Part shown: piece by piece, positions 20,535 to 42,719 of the stretch
Position numbering within the stretch: the first letter of the stretch is position 1
Layout: each line of letters begins with the position of its first letter
From: Phycisphaerae bacterium
GTDB taxonomy: Bacteria > Planctomycetota > Phycisphaerae > Sedimentisphaerales > Anaerobacaceae
NCBI GenBank assembly: GCA_017993835.1
Contig: JAGOLX010000051.1
Span: 1-45,330, forward strand
Direction: 5' to 3'
Length of the DNA: 45,330 nucleotides
Translations under genes and position numbers: made by a program
The notes under the pieces: model-generated
Database searches by the model: none
What the model saw: only the letters and a program-made list of their open reading frames with translations
Told to the model about the DNA's origin: nothing

Positions 20535-21884
20535 ATGAAGACGAACCACACCAGATGGATGGAGCGTCGCGGCCTGACGGTCGCGGCACTATTGTCTCTC
20601 TTGTCCGGCTCGGTGCTTCTGGGAGCCGGCGTGAACGGGCCGATCAAAGTGAGTCCGAACGGCCGATACTTCGTAGACCGGAAGGGCCAGCCGTTCTTCT
20701 GGTTGGGAGATACGGCATGGCCGCTGTTTGTCAAGTACAGCAAAGACCAGGCGGAAGCATACTTGAAGAACCGCAGCGCCAAGGGATTCACCGTCATTCA
20801 GGGCGTCCTGGGGTGGAGCCAGGGAAGCGGTGCGGAATCCAGGAGCCCCGGCGCCAATCCCAACGGCGACAAGCCGTGGATCGACGACGACCCAGCCCGA
20901 CCGAACGATGCCTTCTTCCGACATGTGGATTACCTGGTGGAGTTTGCACAGCAGCAGGGTCTCGTCCTGGCGATGCTCCCCACGTGGGGTTACTACGTGA
21001 ATGATACGCAGGTCATCAACATGAAGAACGCGCGCACCTACGGACGGTGGCTGGGGGCTCGATATCGCAGCGCGCCCAACATTGTATGGGTCAACGGCGG
21101 GGACCGCGTCGCCACAGGCTTCGAAGAGGTATGGCGGGAGCTGGCGCGCGGATTGCGTGAGGGCGATGGCGGCGCGCATTTGATCACCTATCATCCTTGC
21201 GGCTGGCGGTCCTCCTCGCAGTACTTTCACACCGATGACTGGCTGGACTTCAACATGATCGAAACCTGGACAGCATGGCCCAAGATTCATCCCGCGGTGC
21301 TGGCCGACGTCGTGCGGACGCCCGTCAAACCGGTGGTGCTGGGCGAGCCCGCGTATGAGAATGGACCGGAGTATCCCCTGGGACCGATCACGCCCTTGAT
21401 CGTACGTCGGCAGGCATGGTGGACCGTGATGGCCGGCGGTTTCTTCACATACGGCCAGGACCAGATGTGGCGCATGCAGGACGGATGGGACAAGACGTTC
21501 GACACGCCGGGTGCCGCCCACGTGTGCAAGATGAAGGAAATCATGGCGTCTCTGCCGTGGTGGGAATTCACACCCGACCAGAGCGTCTTCGACTCAGGCG
21601 TCTCCAGCGAGCAAACGCTCAACACCGCCATGCGCTCGACGCACGGTGACCGGGTCCTGGTCTATCTGTCGTCGCAGTGTACCGTGTTCGTCCACCTCGA
21701 CAAGATCGCCACCGCACGGGCCAAGGCCACTCTGATCCATCCGACCACCGGCGAACGACGTGACGCCGGCACATATCGTACCGGAAATCTCAACAACAGG
21801 ACATTCCCCGACGGCCAGACCCAGTTCTTCTCCACCCCAGGCCATTGGGAAGACGCCCTGTTGCTGTTGGAGGCCGTGAAGTAG
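20535..21884 (+). CDS. secreted DUF4038 (apiosidase-like) glycoside hydrolase
   Basis: A 449-aa exported protein. After a signal sequence (ERRGLTVAALLSLLSGSVLL) the DUF4038 TIM barrel begins with KVSPNGRYFVDRKGQPFFWL and GDTAWPLF, followed by GFTVIQGVLGW, LAMLPTWGYYV, NIVWVNGGD and MIETWTAWPK. The last ~100 residues form the usual C-terminal beta domain (DRVLVYLSSQ...). DUF4038 proteins include GH140 apiosidases acting on pectin side chains; the substrate here is not established. The start has AGGCAGG ten bases upstream, and an internal ATG at 20562 is an alternative. The next gene follows after 45 bp, so the two are probably co-transcribed. Confidence 0.9.
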   Translation: MKTNHTRWMERRGLTVAALLSLLSGSVLLGAGVNGPIKVSPNGRYFVDRKGQPFFWLGDTAWPLFVKYSKDQAEAYLKNRSAKGFTVIQGVLGWSQGSGAESRSPGANPNGDKPWIDDDPARPNDAFFRHVDYLVEFAQQQGLVLAMLPTWGYYVNDTQVINMKNARTYGRWLGARYRSAPNIVWVNGGDRVATGFEEVWRELARGLREGDGGAHLITYHPCGWRSSSQYFHTDDWLDFNMIETWTAWPKIHPAVLADVVRTPVKPVVLGEPAYENGPEYPLGPITPLIVRRQAWWTVMAGGFFTYGQDQMWRMQDGWDKTFDTPGAAHVCKMKEIMASLPWWEFTPDQSVFDSGVSSEQTLNTAMRSTHGDRVLVYLSSQCTVFVHLDKIATARAKATLIHPTTGERRDAGTYRTGNLNNRTFPDGQTQFFSTPGHWEDALLLLEAVK

Positions 21885-21929
21885 GTCGTGCGGCAGGCAC
21901 ATGGGGCATTCTGTGATAAGGGGATAATC

Positions 21930-23657
21930 TTGAAGACGATGAGCGTTCGTTCGATGTGTTTGTTGCTTTCGATGGGCAGTCTGGCAGCCGCGGGGAGTCC
22001 TGCGCCGCCCGCGTTGTATGGCGTCGATGCCCTGGGACGGGCGATGCCCGGACCATCGGAGGTCCGGGATTTCCGCAAGGACCGCTACGTCGGGATCTTC
22101 TACTTCCTCTGGCTGAACGTGAACCAGGTCTACGACAACTCGCAGATCCTGAAGGACAACCCGGACGCACAGAAGACCAATGCCTCCCCGCCGTGGGGTC
22201 CGGTCCACGCGTATCATTTCTGGGGCGAACCCCTCTTCGGCTACTATCGCAGCGACGATCCCTGGGTCCTGCGACGCCACGCCGCTCTGCTCTCCGACGC
22301 AGGAGTGGATTTCCTCGTGTTCGACACGACGAACGCCGTGATCTATGAGGACGTGGTCCTGCGATTGTGCGAGGTGTTCGAGCAGCAGCGTCAAGCTGGC
22401 GACCCCGTCCCGCAGATCGCGTTCATGGTGAATACCGAGGCCGGCCGGACCGCGCAGAGGATCTATGAACTGCTCTATAAGCCGGGCCGCTATCGGGAAT
22501 TGTGGTTCCGCTGGCAGGGAAAGCCCCTGCTGATCTGCGATCCGGCGGAGGCGCCGAAGGAGGTCTTGGATTTCTTCACGCTGCGCAAGGCCCACTGGCC
22601 GTTCGAACTGGTCAACACGCACAACGCCTGGCATTGGGAGGCGACCTATCCACAGGTCTACTCCTACGATGAGGACCCGTCGGTGCCCGAGCAGGTGGAC
22701 GTCTCCGTCGGCCAGAACCTGCACCAGAAGACCGGTCAGGTCGAGATGATGAGCACCGGCTGGGCCCGCGGGCGGAGTTTCCACGACGGTCGCGTCGACG
22801 ACCGCCCGCAATCCTACGTGTACGGCCTGAACTTCGGGGAGCAGTGGAACCGCGCCCTGGACCTGGATCCGAACGTGGTCTTCCTCACCGGCTGGAACGA
22901 GTGGATCGCCATGCAGTTGAACACCGGCCAGGGACCCGCGATTTTCTGCGATCAGTTCAATCCCGAGTTCAGCCGGGATGTGGAGATGATGAAAGGCGGC
23001 TACAGCGACAACTACTACCTGCAGATGGCCGCGAACATCCGACGATTCAAAGGCATGACGCCCCTGCCACAGGCATCGCGGGCCAAGACGATTGACCTGT
23101 CGGGACCGTTCAGCCAGTGGAACGCGGTCCAACCGGAGTACTGCGACCGCGGCCTGGACACACTGCCCCGCGACTGTGCGGGTTGTGGGGACAAGCACTA
23201 CGCCGTCCGTTCCGGCCGCAACGACTTCCGCATCCTGAAGGTCGCCAGAGACGATCAGAACGTCTACTTCTACGCCCAGACCGAGGAGCCCATCACCGCG
23301 CCCACGGATCCGAACTGGATGTGGCTGCTGGTTCACGTCGACGGGACCGCGGGGCCGAACTGGGAAGGATTCAACTTCCGGGTGAACGGCCAGGTCCGCA
23401 GCAACGGGGAGACCTCCGTCGAGTCCTCCTTGGGCGGCTGGCGGTGGCAGCAGGTTGGCGTCGCTGCCTGTCGGGTCGAAGGCAGACAGCTTCACGTCGC
23501 GGTGCCGCGACAGTTGCTCGGCATCGGGCCCGGCGGATTCGCCATCGAATTCAAATGGATCGACAACGCACAGAGACCGGGGGACATCCTGAACGCCTAC
23601 GTGGACGGCGACGCGGCGCCGGACGGACGCTTCCGCTATCGCTACGGCGCGCCGTGA
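21930..23657 (+). CDS. secreted GH99/GH71-like glycosidase with C-terminal binding domain
   Basis: A 575-aa exported protein from a TTG at 21930, chosen because AAGGGG lies six bases upstream; the ATG at 21939 is the alternative. A hydrophobic signal segment (MCLLLSMGSLAAAG) precedes the catalytic part (~25-370): VGIFYFLWLN, GVDFLVFDTTNA, LVNTHNAWHWEA and FLTGWNEWIAM, the conserved WNEW region of GH99-like and related families. A beta-sandwich domain (~400-575; VYFYAQTEEPI, WLLVHVDGTAGPNWEGF, FAIEFKWIDN) resembles CBM9/DOMON-type carbohydrate-binding folds. GH99 enzymes cut alpha-mannosides, but the specificity of this distant member is open. It follows the DUF4038 gene closely, suggesting joint action on one glycan. 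Confidence 0.87.
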   Translation: MKTMSVRSMCLLLSMGSLAAAGSPAPPALYGVDALGRAMPGPSEVRDFRKDRYVGIFYFLWLNVNQVYDNSQILKDNPDAQKTNASPPWGPVHAYHFWGEPLFGYYRSDDPWVLRRHAALLSDAGVDFLVFDTTNAVIYEDVVLRLCEVFEQQRQAGDPVPQIAFMVNTEAGRTAQRIYELLYKPGRYRELWFRWQGKPLLICDPAEAPKEVLDFFTLRKAHWPFELVNTHNAWHWEATYPQVYSYDEDPSVPEQVDVSVGQNLHQKTGQVEMMSTGWARGRSFHDGRVDDRPQSYVYGLNFGEQWNRALDLDPNVVFLTGWNEWIAMQLNTGQGPAIFCDQFNPEFSRDVEMMKGGYSDNYYLQMAANIRRFKGMTPLPQASRAKTIDLSGPFSQWNAVQPEYCDRGLDTLPRDCAGCGDKHYAVRSGRNDFRILKVARDDQNVYFYAQTEEPITAPTDPNWMWLLVHVDGTAGPNWEGFNFRVNGQVRSNGETSVESSLGGWRWQQVGVAACRVEGRQLHVAVPRQLLGIGPGGFAIEFKWIDNAQRPGDILNAYVDGDAAPDGRFRYRYGAP

Positions 23658-23765: not shown

Positions 23766-24650
23766 TCAGTCCCGCGTGCACTTTGCGTCTTGAACAGGAG
23801 CGGCGCCGAACAGACGCTTGTACTCCCGGCTGAACTGGGGCGCGCTCTCGTACCCGACCGCGAAGGCCGCGGCGCTGGCCGTGTACCCTTCCTGAGTCAT
23901 CAGGAGACGCGCCTTGCCCAGCCGAACGCTCTTGAGATACTGCAGAGGCGACATGCTGGTCACAGCCTTGAACTTCTGATGGAAGGTGGACGGGCTCATC
24001 CTGGCCTGTCGTGCGAGCGATTCGACATCGCTCGCCTCGGCGTAGTTCCGATGCAGATGATTCAGCACACGACTGATCTGGCCGAAGGGGGTGTCGCGTG
24101 CCACCAACGCGCGTAGCGCATCGCCGCCCTTGGCCTGCAACACGCGGTAGACGATCTCACGAACGAATTGCGGACCCAGGACTCTGGAATCGACCGGCGA
24201 CGTCAGGCAGTCGAGAAGACGAACCGCTGCGTCTCTCAACGGTTGGGTGAGAGGACTTGCGCACAGACCACGCGGGACCGACTGTGGGTTGGGAGACTCG
24301 CCGTCCATTTCCAGAAGCAACTCGCCGATCATTAAGGGATCGACTGAGATCGCAAGGAGCAGGATCGGATTCCGCGGGCTGGCGTGCGGAGTCTCACACT
24401 CGACGGGCATCGGCACAGCCGTGACAAGATAGTTGTCAGCATCATAGGTATAGACGTCCCCGCTGAAATAGACACGCTTGGAGCCCTGGGCAATGATGAT
24501 GATCCAGGGCTCATACAGGGCGGCATGTCTCGGCAAAGGCCGCGAGATCCGATAGAGCTTCACGCCTGCCAATGTGGTGGGATTGGGCCCTTCCTGCGGG
24601 GTCTGCCCGTCCAGGAGTGCAACAAGTCGGTTGTCTGCGGGGATCTTCAT
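23766..24650 (-). CDS. AraC-family transcriptional regulator
   Basis: A 294-aa DNA-binding protein. The N-terminal half (~25-165) matches the AraC_N sensing domain (KLYRISRPLPRHAALYEPWI, IIIIAQGSKRVYFSGDVYTYDADNYLVTAVPMPVECET). The C-terminal ~100 residues hold two helix-turn-helix motifs: ASDVESLARQARMSPSTFHQKF and ASAAAFAVGYESAPQFSREY followed by KRLFGAAP. It is divergent from the PQQ-propeller genes. The 150-bp intergenic region contains a 21-bp-spaced direct repeat beside the -35 of the propeller promoter, the arrangement expected for an AraC-type activator. The inducer is unknown. Confidence 0.94.
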   Translation of the reverse strand: MKIPADNRLVALLDGQTPQEGPNPTTLAGVKLYRISRPLPRHAALYEPWIIIIAQGSKRVYFSGDVYTYDADNYLVTAVPMPVECETPHASPRNPILLLAISVDPLMIGELLLEMDGESPNPQSVPRGLCASPLTQPLRDAAVRLLDCLTSPVDSRVLGPQFVREIVYRVLQAKGGDALRALVARDTPFGQISRVLNHLHRNYAEASDVESLARQARMSPSTFHQKFKAVTSMSPLQYLKSVRLGKARLLMTQEGYTASAAAFAVGYESAPQFSREYKRLFGAAPVQDAKCTRD

Positions 24651-24676
24651 AATGCCCGATCATACGGCGCAACGTC

Positions 24677-24707
24677 GGATTAGGCAAGGAATTCGTAGGT
24701 TTAGGCA
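24677..24707 (+). promoter_or_regulatory. putative AraC-type operator (two direct half-sites)
   Basis: GG(A/T)TTAGGCA occurs at 24677-24686 and again at 24698-24707, same orientation, exactly 21 bp (two helical turns) apart. The second copy ends one base before the putative -35 box. AraC-family activators typically bind such direct repeats and touch RNA polymerase from the promoter-proximal site. Confidence 0.5.
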
Positions 24708-24736
24708 TTGATCGAACTGCAGCGATGCTTCATACT
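24708..24736 (+). promoter_or_regulatory. promoter of the PQQ-propeller genes
   Basis: TTGATC (24708-24713), 17-bp spacer, CATACT (24731-24736). Transcription would start near 24743, about 58 nt before the ATG at 24801. The boxes are sub-optimal, as expected for an activator-dependent promoter. Confidence 0.42.
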
Positions 24737-24800
24737 CGGTTGGGGTAAAGGTAGACCGAGTTGCCATCGCAGCGCAAGGACGAGAGTGCGAAGGAGCCAT

Positions 24801-26159
24801 ATGAGAACGCCATCGAATCGATCCTGTCGTGGACCCGCGTTAGTCATTGCCATCGGTTGCTGCCTGTTCACGACCCGCGCCTGGCCGGCAGACTGGCCTC
24901 AGTATCTGGGACCGGCCAGAAACTCAACCTCGCCGGAGAAGGGACTTCTGCGTTCCTGGCCTGAGCAAGGGCCGGAGGTGCTGTGGACCGTTGCGGTTGG
25001 CATAGGCTACGGTGGCCCCGTCGTCAAAGATGGCAAGGTGTACTTGCTCGACCGGGATGACAAGGTGGGGGATACATTGCGGTGCTTAGACCTCTCCAAG
25101 GGCAACGAGCTCTGGAGTTTTGCCTATGACGCTCCCGGGCGGGTCATGTTTCCCGGCTCGCGCAGCGTGCCCCTCGTGGAGGGCGACCGTGTCTACTCGT
25201 GCGGTCCCTATGGGGATCTCTATTGCATAGACACCAATACACACAAGGCCGTCTGGAACAAGAACGTATGGAAGGACTTCGGCGGCGGTCGAATTCCGAT
25301 CTGGGCCATTACTCAGTGTCCTCTTGTCTACGGCGATTTGCTAATTGTCGCTTCGCAAGCTCCCCAAGCGGGCGTGGTTGCCTATGATAAACGCACAGGC
25401 AACGTCGTCTGGAAGACGCCCAATCTTGGCAATGAGACCTATGTCAGTCCGGCAACTGTGAAGATCGATGGAACAGACCATGTCGTAATGGTTACTTCAT
25501 CGACCAATCGTATCGGGCATCCAGAACTGCCAGATGCTTTGGGGAATGTTGTCGGAATAGAATCCCTTACGGGAAAGACTCTCTGGAAATACGATCAGTG
25601 GCGGTGTCACATTTCGGTGCCCAGTGCCGTGGACGCCGGTGATAACAAGGTGCTCGTTGTGGGCGGATATGAACTCGGCGCCGTGATGATCAAGGTCGAG
25701 AAGAAGACAGACGGCAGCTACGGCGCCACAGAGGTCTTCAGAACCGAAGAATTCGGCGATCAAACAAAGCCGCCGATACTGCATAATGGCTACTTCTATG
25801 CTCAGTACGGAACCAACAACCGGCATGACGGCCTGACGTGCATGAGCATGGATGGCAAGATCCTGTGGAAGACGGAGCGTTCCCCTCAGTTCAACAAAGG
25901 CAGTATGATTCTCGTCGACGGTCTGCTTCTGGCTACCGACGGCAGGAGGACTCTGTATCTCATCGAGCCTGATCCTTCCGGGTTCAAGCCCCTTGCATCG
26001 GCAGAGGTGCTCAGAGAAGGAGGCACAGGATCGGAAAACGACCCTATGGCCTCCCGAGTGGGAGGCTCGACTCAGAACTGGTCGCCGCTGGCCCTGTCTG
26101 ATGGCAAGCTCCTCGTCCGGGACCAGAGGCGGTTAAGGTGTGTTAGAGTAGCTGAATGA
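24801..26159 (+). CDS. secreted PQQ-like beta-propeller protein 1
   Basis: A 452-aa exported protein. The ATG at 24801 has AAGGAG close upstream and yields a signal peptide (LVIAIGCCLFTTRAWPADW). The mature part opens with DWPQYLGPARNSTSPEKGLL and contains repeated propeller blades ending in LDLSKGNELW, DTNTHKAVW, YDKRTGNVVWK, IESLTGKTLWKYD and SMDGKILWKTE. The family resembles BamB and PQQ dehydrogenases but lacks dehydrogenase motifs, and PQQ binding is not implied. Such genes are very numerous in planctomycetes, with unknown roles, perhaps protein-protein scaffolding in the periplasm. It is probably under control of the divergent AraC regulator. A paralogue of the same length follows. Confidence 0.9.
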   Translation: MRTPSNRSCRGPALVIAIGCCLFTTRAWPADWPQYLGPARNSTSPEKGLLRSWPEQGPEVLWTVAVGIGYGGPVVKDGKVYLLDRDDKVGDTLRCLDLSKGNELWSFAYDAPGRVMFPGSRSVPLVEGDRVYSCGPYGDLYCIDTNTHKAVWNKNVWKDFGGGRIPIWAITQCPLVYGDLLIVASQAPQAGVVAYDKRTGNVVWKTPNLGNETYVSPATVKIDGTDHVVMVTSSTNRIGHPELPDALGNVVGIESLTGKTLWKYDQWRCHISVPSAVDAGDNKVLVVGGYELGAVMIKVEKKTDGSYGATEVFRTEEFGDQTKPPILHNGYFYAQYGTNNRHDGLTCMSMDGKILWKTERSPQFNKGSMILVDGLLLATDGRRTLYLIEPDPSGFKPLASAEVLREGGTGSENDPMASRVGGSTQNWSPLALSDGKLLVRDQRRLRCVRVAE

Positions 26160-26323: not shown

Positions 26324-26453
26324 CGCCTCGTTCCGAACGCTTTTCCGCGGTGCTCCATTTCCAGATTATGCAATATCTCACGGAGCCAGAACGTCGCTAT
26401 GTAGGAAATCGTGGCACAATCAACGATCAGCAACCAATACACAGAGGAATCCT

Positions 26454-27812
26454 ATGAGAACCTCGACGAATCGCCGCTCCTGCCTGCTTGTTCTTTGCAC
26501 TCTCAGTTGTTGCTGTCTTGCGCCTCTGGACGCGAATGCGGAGGATTGGCCGCAATGGCAGGGACCCAACCGCGACGGCAAGTCCGCGGACACCGGTCTT
26601 CTCAAGGAATGGCCGAACGGCGGCCCCCCGCTGGCCTGGAGGATCGACAAGCTCGGCGGGGGCGACGGTGGTCCGGCCATTGCCGCTGGACGGATCCTCA
26701 TCATGAGCAATCGCGGCCAGGAGGAAGTCGTTTGGGCCCTGTCCGAAAAGGACGGTAGTGAGATCTGGGTAACGCCCCTTGGACCGGCCTTTTCGCAGCG
26801 GGCCTCGCAGGGGAAAGAGGGGCCGGCGTGTACGCCGACGGTCGATGGCGGACGACTCTACGTCGAGGGGCTCGCCGGCAACGTCGCGTGCCTGCAGGTC
26901 GCCGACGGCGAGATCATCTGGCGGCGCAGCCTGACGGAGGATTTCGGCGGACGAGTGCCCATGTGGAGCTACCGCGAATCGCCCCTCATCGATGGCGACA
27001 AAGTGATCGTCACCCCCGGCGGCGCCGATGCGATCCTGGTGGCCCTGAACAAGCTGACCGGTGAGACTGTCTGGAAGGCCAAACTGCCCGACAGCCCCGC
27101 CGGCGGTTCGCAAGCACCGGCCGGCCCCGGCGGCGGTCGAGGAGGTCCCGGCGGCGGTGCCGGAGCGTCCTACGCCTCGCCCATCGCCATCGACTTCGAC
27201 GGACAGCGCCAGTACGTGCAACTGACTGCAAGAACGCTTATCGGAGTCGCAGCGTCCGATGGCAAGTTCCTCTGGCGGTATGACAAACCCGCCAATCGCA
27301 TGGGGATCAACTGCTCAACGGCGCTCTACCACGAAGGGATGGTCTTCGCCTCCTCCGCCTATGACGCAGGCGCCGGGCTCGTCAAGCTGGGCAAGGATGC
27401 CGATGGTGCCGTCAAGGCCGAGGAGGTCTACGCCACCACGGACATGCAGAACCACCACGGCGGCATGATCCTCCTCGATGGCTGTCTCTACGGCGCCAGC
27501 GGTGGCAATGAGGGCGGCGCCCTCGTCTGTCTCGACCTCAAGACCGGCAAGGTCCTGTGGGACCAGCGCGAAAGCGTTGGTCGTCGTGCGAAGGGTTCGC
27601 TGGCCTTTGCGGACGGCTTGCTCTACTATCGCATGGAGGATGGCACGGTGTGCCTGATCGAGCCGAATCCGAAGCAATACACCGAACGCAGCCGTTTCCA
27701 ACAGCCCGACCGCACCCGCCTGCCGGCCTGGTCTCACCCGGTGATCGCCAACGGAAAACTATACATCCGCGATCAGGATCTGCTGCTGTGCTATGACATC
27801 AAGGCCAGATGA
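26454..27812 (+). CDS. secreted PQQ-like beta-propeller protein 2
   Basis: A 452-aa exported protein. The ATG at 26454 is preceded by AGAGGAATCCT and followed by a Cys-rich signal peptide (LLVLCTLSCCCLAPLDANA). The mature part begins EDWPQWQGPNRDGKSADTGL and shows blade ends such as LSEKDGSEIW, VADGEIIWRR, LNKLTGETVWKAK, AASDGKFLWRYD and LDLKTGKVLWDQ. A Gly-rich low-complexity insert (AGPGGGRGGPGGGAGAS, around residues 220-237) interrupts the propeller. The first gene and this one share length, leader style and domain order and are probably a tandem duplication. Function unknown; likely periplasmic. Confidence 0.9.
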   Translation: MRTSTNRRSCLLVLCTLSCCCLAPLDANAEDWPQWQGPNRDGKSADTGLLKEWPNGGPPLAWRIDKLGGGDGGPAIAAGRILIMSNRGQEEVVWALSEKDGSEIWVTPLGPAFSQRASQGKEGPACTPTVDGGRLYVEGLAGNVACLQVADGEIIWRRSLTEDFGGRVPMWSYRESPLIDGDKVIVTPGGADAILVALNKLTGETVWKAKLPDSPAGGSQAPAGPGGGRGGPGGGAGASYASPIAIDFDGQRQYVQLTARTLIGVAASDGKFLWRYDKPANRMGINCSTALYHEGMVFASSAYDAGAGLVKLGKDADGAVKAEEVYATTDMQNHHGGMILLDGCLYGASGGNEGGALVCLDLKTGKVLWDQRESVGRRAKGSLAFADGLLYYRMEDGTVCLIEPNPKQYTERSRFQQPDRTRLPAWSHPVIANGKLYIRDQDLLLCYDIKAR

Positions 27813-42508: not shown

Positions 42509-42719
42509 TCCGTGAAGAACCCTCCGCGGGCAACTTCGACACAGCCCGCCAGTCGCTTTCTCTTGACAATTCCGACCGGTTCAGGCAATATGGCGATAGG
42601 AATTGACGATTGATGATGGATGATTGGCGATTGAGAATCCGTGTGCGTCCGTGAAATCCGTGTCTGAAGAGAGACCGTGTCCATTCGTGTCGGCCCGGCC
42701 GCGTGTGGCGGGATACGAT

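Follow-up and report, generated by a model that had tools for sequence, protein, structure and literature searches.

A direct repeat upstream of two planctomycete propeller genes is very probably the predicted operator of a neighbouring YqhC-type regulator

The stretch of DNA analysed here (the window; 45,330 nucleotides of contig JAGOLX010000051.1 from a Phycisphaerae bacterium) contains a 150-bp spacer that separates a regulator gene on the minus strand from two PQQ-like propeller genes on the plus strand. A direct repeat and promoter-like hexamers crowd into this region, giving the following layout:

23766-24650, minus strand: AraC_N (YqhC-type) regulator, 294 aa (PF06719, 3.8e-47; HTH_18, 9.4e-21; HTH_AraC, 4.7e-14)
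24659-24687, minus strand: possible regulator promoter, TTGCCT-17-TATGAT (9/12 in a pattern scan), with its -35 on half-site 1
24675-24688, plus strand: predicted operator half-site 1, TCGGATTAGGCAAG (half-site model score 14.4)
24696-24709, plus strand: predicted operator half-site 2, TAGGTTTAGGCATT (starting 21 bp after site 1; model score 11.7)
24708-24713, plus strand: -35-like TTGATC (2-nt overlap with half-site 2; offset +33)
24731-24736, plus strand: -10-like CATACT (17 nt after TTGATC; offset +56 from site 1; 4/6)
24801-26159, plus strand: propeller gene 1 (PQQ_2), 452 aa, the presumed target (PF13360, 3.2e-23)
26457-27812, plus strand: propeller gene 2 (PQQ_2), 451 aa, the presumed second gene of the operon (PF13360, 1.3e-30)

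The regulator scores 160 bits against PF06719, where the cut-off is 24.2, and its HTH_18 and HTH_AraC matches also lie above cut-off; it is the only full-length relative found in its own genome. As in YqhC-type systems, its neighbour is divergent and the operator lies in the spacer between the two genes. Elsewhere in the window, positions 21888-23657 encode a 589-aa protein with no Pfam or NCBIfam match at 0.001, adjoining an apiosidase-like enzyme (20535-21884).

Two 10-mers, GGATTAGGCA at 24677-24686 and GGTTTAGGCA at 24698-24707, lie in the same orientation with a period of exactly 21 bp. The original prediction had proposed such a pair next to TTGATC, and both points hold: the coordinates of the copies are exact, and TTGATC starts at 24708 with no base between. 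The downstream half-site (24696-24709) overlaps the -35-like hexamer (24708-24713) and the activator would sit upstream, the arrangement of a class II promoter. AraC at araI1-I2 and other class II promoters of the AraC family have the same geometry, two direct half-sites with a 21-bp period and the downstream one at the -35; the window differs from araI1-I2 in the sequence of the operator and in the N-terminus of the regulator. The promoter TTGATC/CATACT is a poor match to the sigma-70 consensus (8/12), and it is absent from a generic sigma-70 scan because that scan required at least 9/12 and so could not decide the matter. When the 150-bp spacer was shuffled 5000 times, two 10-mers with at least 9/10 positions in common arose at distance 21 in 0.26% of the shuffles and at any distance of 11-31 bp in 4.5%. 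Taken alone, the repeat is just mildly unusual; it is comparison with other loci that lifts it above chance.

A search of the window's 6.4-Mb genome for the full 31-bp pattern gave one exact match and one further match with 3 mismatches; as a control, the backwards pattern gave 4 matches, against the one 3-mismatch match of the real pattern. By pattern search alone, the genome contains a single target site, and no such operator was found at six other AraC-family loci of the same genome. A weaker operator-like pair (scores 8.7 and 5.9) adjoins a repetitive stretch at window 42576-42637 and is probably a chance occurrence.

An initial scan of contigs gave just two relatives, and the sampling was then widened to genomes and plasmids. 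We compared 55 regions upstream of AraC_N genes: the window, its closest relative (locus L019) and a further 53, which come from planctomycete genomes, a cyanobacterial MAG, E. coli MG1655 and 21 plasmid records. With the window and L019 left out, the most enriched 6-mer is AGGCAA, found in 33 of the 53 regions against 5.6 expected, and the most enriched 8-mer is AGGATTAG. A 14-column half-site model with the consensus GAGGATTAGGCAAG reaches 15.9 bits, where 30 shuffled sets gave no more than 8.4, and scores at least 10 in 51/53 regions, compared with at most 5/53 in the shuffles. The two 10-mer copies first noticed in the window are real, but the conserved half-site is 14 bp long.

We then aligned 47 usable loci on their best site, after setting aside L010 and L034 for low scores (L034 has no in-frame start codon upstream) and L027, L029, L040 and L056, whose best site lies at position 260 or further on. 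The conservation of site 1 is partly by construction because the loci were aligned on it; the unsupervised k-mer count, the shuffle control and the peaks at +21 and +56 do not arise in this way. A second half-site (score at least -5) lies at exactly +21 in 31/47 loci, while other offsets average 0.9 with a highest count of 6. These other offsets serve as the control for the peak in place of the shuffle count (mean 8.2, highest 14/53), which comes from weak motifs refound under a lax threshold and cannot be set against 31/47. A -10-like hexamer occurs at exactly +56 in 20 of the 47 comparison loci, against a background of 1.2% per offset; a -35-like hexamer at +33 is rare (7/47), and a reverse -10 at the offset of the regulator promoter (5/47) is not a family feature.

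The window falls into the same register, with site 1 at 24675, site 2 at 24696 (+21), TTGATC at 24708 (+33) and CATACT at 24731 (+56). Half-site 2 is the best other position among the 702 scored in the window region; half-site 1 has C at column 1, where 47/47 comparison loci have A. The architecture recurs at AraC_N loci of Planctomycetota, Cyanobacteriota, Pseudomonadota and Bacillota. Since the register of the window equals that of the family, the repeat is predicted to be an operator of the AraC_N family in its standard position relative to a promoter. One clade with AraC_N beside cupin genes (L027, L029, L040 and L042/L226) seems to have the operator twice in its long spacer, with one copy close to the regulator and the other close to the cupin gene.

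Among relatives that have the same gene pair, the closest is a Phycisphaerae MAG (locus L019 on JAPLMX010000221.1), which we take to be genome G705, as the spacer sequence is the same. Its regulator is 82% identical to that of the window. Both half-sites, TTGATC, the 17-nt spacing, CATACT and the propeller pair are all conserved, whereas 9/17 positions are identical in the stretch from -35 to -10; TATGAT, the minus-strand -10 of the possible regulator promoter, is kept as well. Conservation of the half-sites in relatives had been proposed at the outset as a check on the repeat, and in this genome the repeat passes it.

E. coli YqhC, which is 47% identical to the window regulator over 264 aa, provides a second point of comparison. 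The yqhC/yqhD spacer contains GAGAAATAGGCAAG, a second half-site at +21, TTGAGA at +33 and CACAAT at +56. A paper on a YqhC biosensor gives TTGAGA/CACAAT as the -35 and -10 of yqhD, citing Lee 2010 (PMC6115493); the published E. coli elements have the same two offsets (+33 and +56) as the -35 and -10 of the window. According to the literature, YqhC activates yqhD and dkgA in response to aldehydes (PMC5297802, PMC6115493), retards the yqhD-dkgA promoter in gel-shift assays (PMC8262776) and has a single site by gSELEX, in the yqhC/yqhD spacer (PMC8249747), a likeness to the single site that pattern search finds in the window genome. The YqhC site is described in the same biosensor paper as a SoxS-like sequence and a 24-bp palindrome, other than the direct repeat (PMC6115493), and in the passages searched we did not find the direct repeat named as a YqhC element.

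The E. coli and window loci share an AraC_N regulator, a divergent target, the operator and the -35/-10 offsets. They differ in the target, which in the window is a pair of PQQ_2 propeller genes and not aldehyde or ketone reductases. A reductase target characterises YqhC itself and not the AraC_N family at large, in which cupin, hydrolase and propeller neighbours are common. The early reading of the repeat as a site for an AraC-family activator is supported by the ortholog, the family and E. coli alike, with the correction that the regulator belongs to the AraC_N/YqhC type in particular.

What do the presumed targets encode? In the 297 bp between the propeller genes, the pattern scan listed no promoter- or terminator-like site, which suggests that both genes are probably co-transcribed; in a sibling genome (G218), the gap between the same pair is about 50 bp. 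An AlphaFold2 model of propeller gene 1, built from four sequences (pLDDT 71, pTM 0.76), has a propeller with a low-confidence N-terminal stretch. Its best Foldseek E is 1.4e-19, to BamB, and VIA-align gives Z scores of about 32 to YxaL and BamB; the protein is predicted to have the fold of the BamB/YxaL-like PQQ propellers. Its scores lie far under the cut-offs of the NCBIfam models for BamB (TIGR03300, 44.5 bits against 285.2) and for PQQ-dependent alcohol dehydrogenase (TIGR03075, 39.4 bits against 480.05). A hydrophobic N-terminus, judged by eye, points to export. The target is one of many propellers: the window genome has 26 PQQ_2 places, and five planctomycete genomes have 19 to 50 each. 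The leader (signal-peptide) regions of propellers 1 and 2 are alike across the window and G705, while the mature proteins are about 30% identical, which suggests that the leader was copied. The similar leader regions are:

Window: 24792-24901 and 26441-26478
L068: 1488-1525 and 3045-3154

The pairing of AraC_N with a propeller is found at other loci. We used Pfam to type the divergent gene at 31 of 40 planctomycete AraC_N loci (L008, L012, L018, L028, L038, L046, L102, L103 and L105 were left out), taking the longest ORF that starts at most 400 bp from the site, a caller that can be wrong. There are 10 cupins, 5 propellers, 3 zinc alcohol dehydrogenases, 3 aldo/keto reductases, 3 SDRs, 3 alpha/beta hydrolases or peptidase-like proteins, and 1 each of iron alcohol dehydrogenase, HlyD, DUF362 and none; most AraC_N regulators have targets other than propellers. 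The five propeller-paired loci are the window, G705, L011, L017 and L031. A tree of 60 regulators, whose bootstrap is not fully settled, requires three changes to account for those paired with a propeller, a number that well supported branches impose. In L011, L017 and L031, the partner shares 52-64% identity with propeller 2 and only 27-35% with propeller 1. By comparison, among 60 propeller stretches from five genomes, one was the L031 partner itself (L167), and 57 of the 59 others matched, at best 44% to propeller 2.

Propeller-2-type genes in AraC_N rows stand alone or with alcohol dehydrogenase, aldo/keto reductase, cupin and SDR genes. The order in G490 and G640 is AraC_N, then divergently alcohol dehydrogenase and propeller, followed in G490 by an aldo/keto reductase; in G603 the divergent row is cupin, alcohol dehydrogenase, SDR, SDR, propeller. 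Genome G412 has a propeller-2-type gene with an operator (scores 21.5 and 3.4) and TTAAAAT ending at the +56 hexamer:

L230:4406-4467 (G412:C10), minus strand: strong operator before the propeller ORF 4305-2866; on the other side, a DUF1348 protein

No AraC_N gene was found within the 7 kb read around this locus, the AraC_N genes of G412 lying elsewhere, and this propeller seems to belong to a regulon that is controlled in trans. In G628 (L232:2886-4874), an AraC_N-paired propeller has a malectin domain inserted between its propeller parts.

An operator scan of 55 loci with propeller-2-like genes found five with an operator, all among the 20 loci with at least 52% identity, and none in the 35 loci below 52% (Fisher 0.004); two genes in this set are each split into two loci (L205/L217 and L206/L219), and L168, the window's own propeller 2 locus, stops short of the operator. 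The reversed-sequence control yielded 0 in 772,980 positions. Across a sample of the phylum, AraC_N is present in 6/8 genomes with such a propeller versus 19/392 (P 1.5e-7), or by genus in 4/6 versus 14/267 (P 7e-5); in a sample of the class, the counts are 4/12 versus 11/298 (P 4e-4), with no AraC_N match in 8 of the 12 genomes that have a propeller-2-type gene. These pairing statistics are post hoc, as the 52% limit was chosen once the list had been seen, and the relatedness of genomes, which do not count independently, inflates the apparent association.

The pairing in the window has a narrower distribution. We fetched 30 loci with homologs of propeller 1 from the taxonomic family, 3 of them without upstream DNA; among the 27 testable ones, the AraC_N gene and operator occur only in the window and G705. 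The original prediction offered the repeat as a clue to how usually orphan propeller genes are regulated; this does not generalise, as 25/27 testable homologs have neither the regulator nor the operator. In several siblings (L069 and L072-L075), the propeller 1 gene sits after a long same-strand ORF, and DNA similarity to the window begins near 24880, inside the coding region. That just two genomes are wired in this way, with similarity starting inside the coding region, suggests that regulator, operator and leader were joined to a pre-existing propeller, probably recently. In another sibling, G706, an AraC_N gene with the operator lies at a different place, in front of an aldo/keto reductase.

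The repeat, its spacing, the position of the promoter, the conservation across the regulator family and the match to the published yqhD promoter elements are all seen in the sequences, and from them we infer binding, activation, co-transcription of propeller 2 and the class of ligand. An AraC_N dimer would occupy both half-sites, one subunit on each and with a period of 21 bp, the downstream subunit touching the poor -35, and would recruit RNA polymerase in class II fashion, activating the weak sigma-70 promoter TTGATC-17-CATACT so that both propeller genes are transcribed. The trigger is probably an aldehyde or another reactive carbonyl. Binding may also dampen the regulator's own gene, as suggested by the minus-strand promoter-like site whose -35 lies on half-site 1. 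The neighbouring regulator very probably docks at the repeat, and we hold with high confidence the fuller reading, in which a YqhC-type class II activator operator drives a weak sigma-70 promoter and a two-propeller operon, probably in response to aldehydes or reactive carbonyls. Such an operator is ordinary for the YqhC/AraC_N kind; its wiring to propellers is unusual.

The alternative that deserves most weight, though we judge it unlikely, is that an AraC_N gene and its operator were transferred horizontally and landed before the propeller by accident, so that the regulator binds and the resulting propeller expression is functionless. The siblings that keep the propeller without regulator or operator fit such an event, as do the similarity that starts inside the coding region and the distance of the regulator's closest relatives outside the genus (55-56% identical). 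Against this, arrangement, operator and promoter have been kept in two genomes while the proteins drifted to 82-85% identity, and the second propeller type is found in similar pairings in separate lineages.

It is less probable still that the operator serves autoregulation only, covering the regulator's own promoter with the propeller as a bystander. That the minus-strand TTGCCT-17-TATGAT places its -35 on half-site 1, and that TATGAT is kept in L019, would be expected on such a view; however, the fixed element across the family is the -10 on the propeller side (20/47, versus 5/47 for the reverse -10), and in G412 the operator precedes a propeller with no adjoining AraC_N gene. Chance as the source of the repeat is very improbable: the ease with which shuffled spacers produce a 9/10 repeat at some distance of 11-31 bp would allow it, but not together with the conservation in the ortholog, the k-mer enrichment in the family, the peaks at +21 and +56 and the coincidence with the E. 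coli promoter.

We therefore return to activation of the propeller genes by the AraC_N regulator as the preferred reading. The family-wide operator, a 14-bp half-site repeated at +21 with a -10 at +56, extends from E. coli to Bacillota, Cyanobacteriota and Planctomycetota, and this model enables the prediction of AraC_N targets in genomes, including sites distant from the regulator gene. Planctomycete genomes are rich in PQQ-like propeller genes, and a regulator of the YqhC type, whose E. coli member responds to aldehydes, offers an inexpensive handle on the pair in the window. More tentatively, and with slightly less than even confidence, we propose that a probably exported BamB/YxaL-like propeller subfamily, of the type encoded at 26457-27812, recurs as a member of carbonyl-stress regulons under AraC_N control in Planctomycetota. 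If true, this would be the first physiological context for this propeller subfamily: the response to reactive aldehydes.
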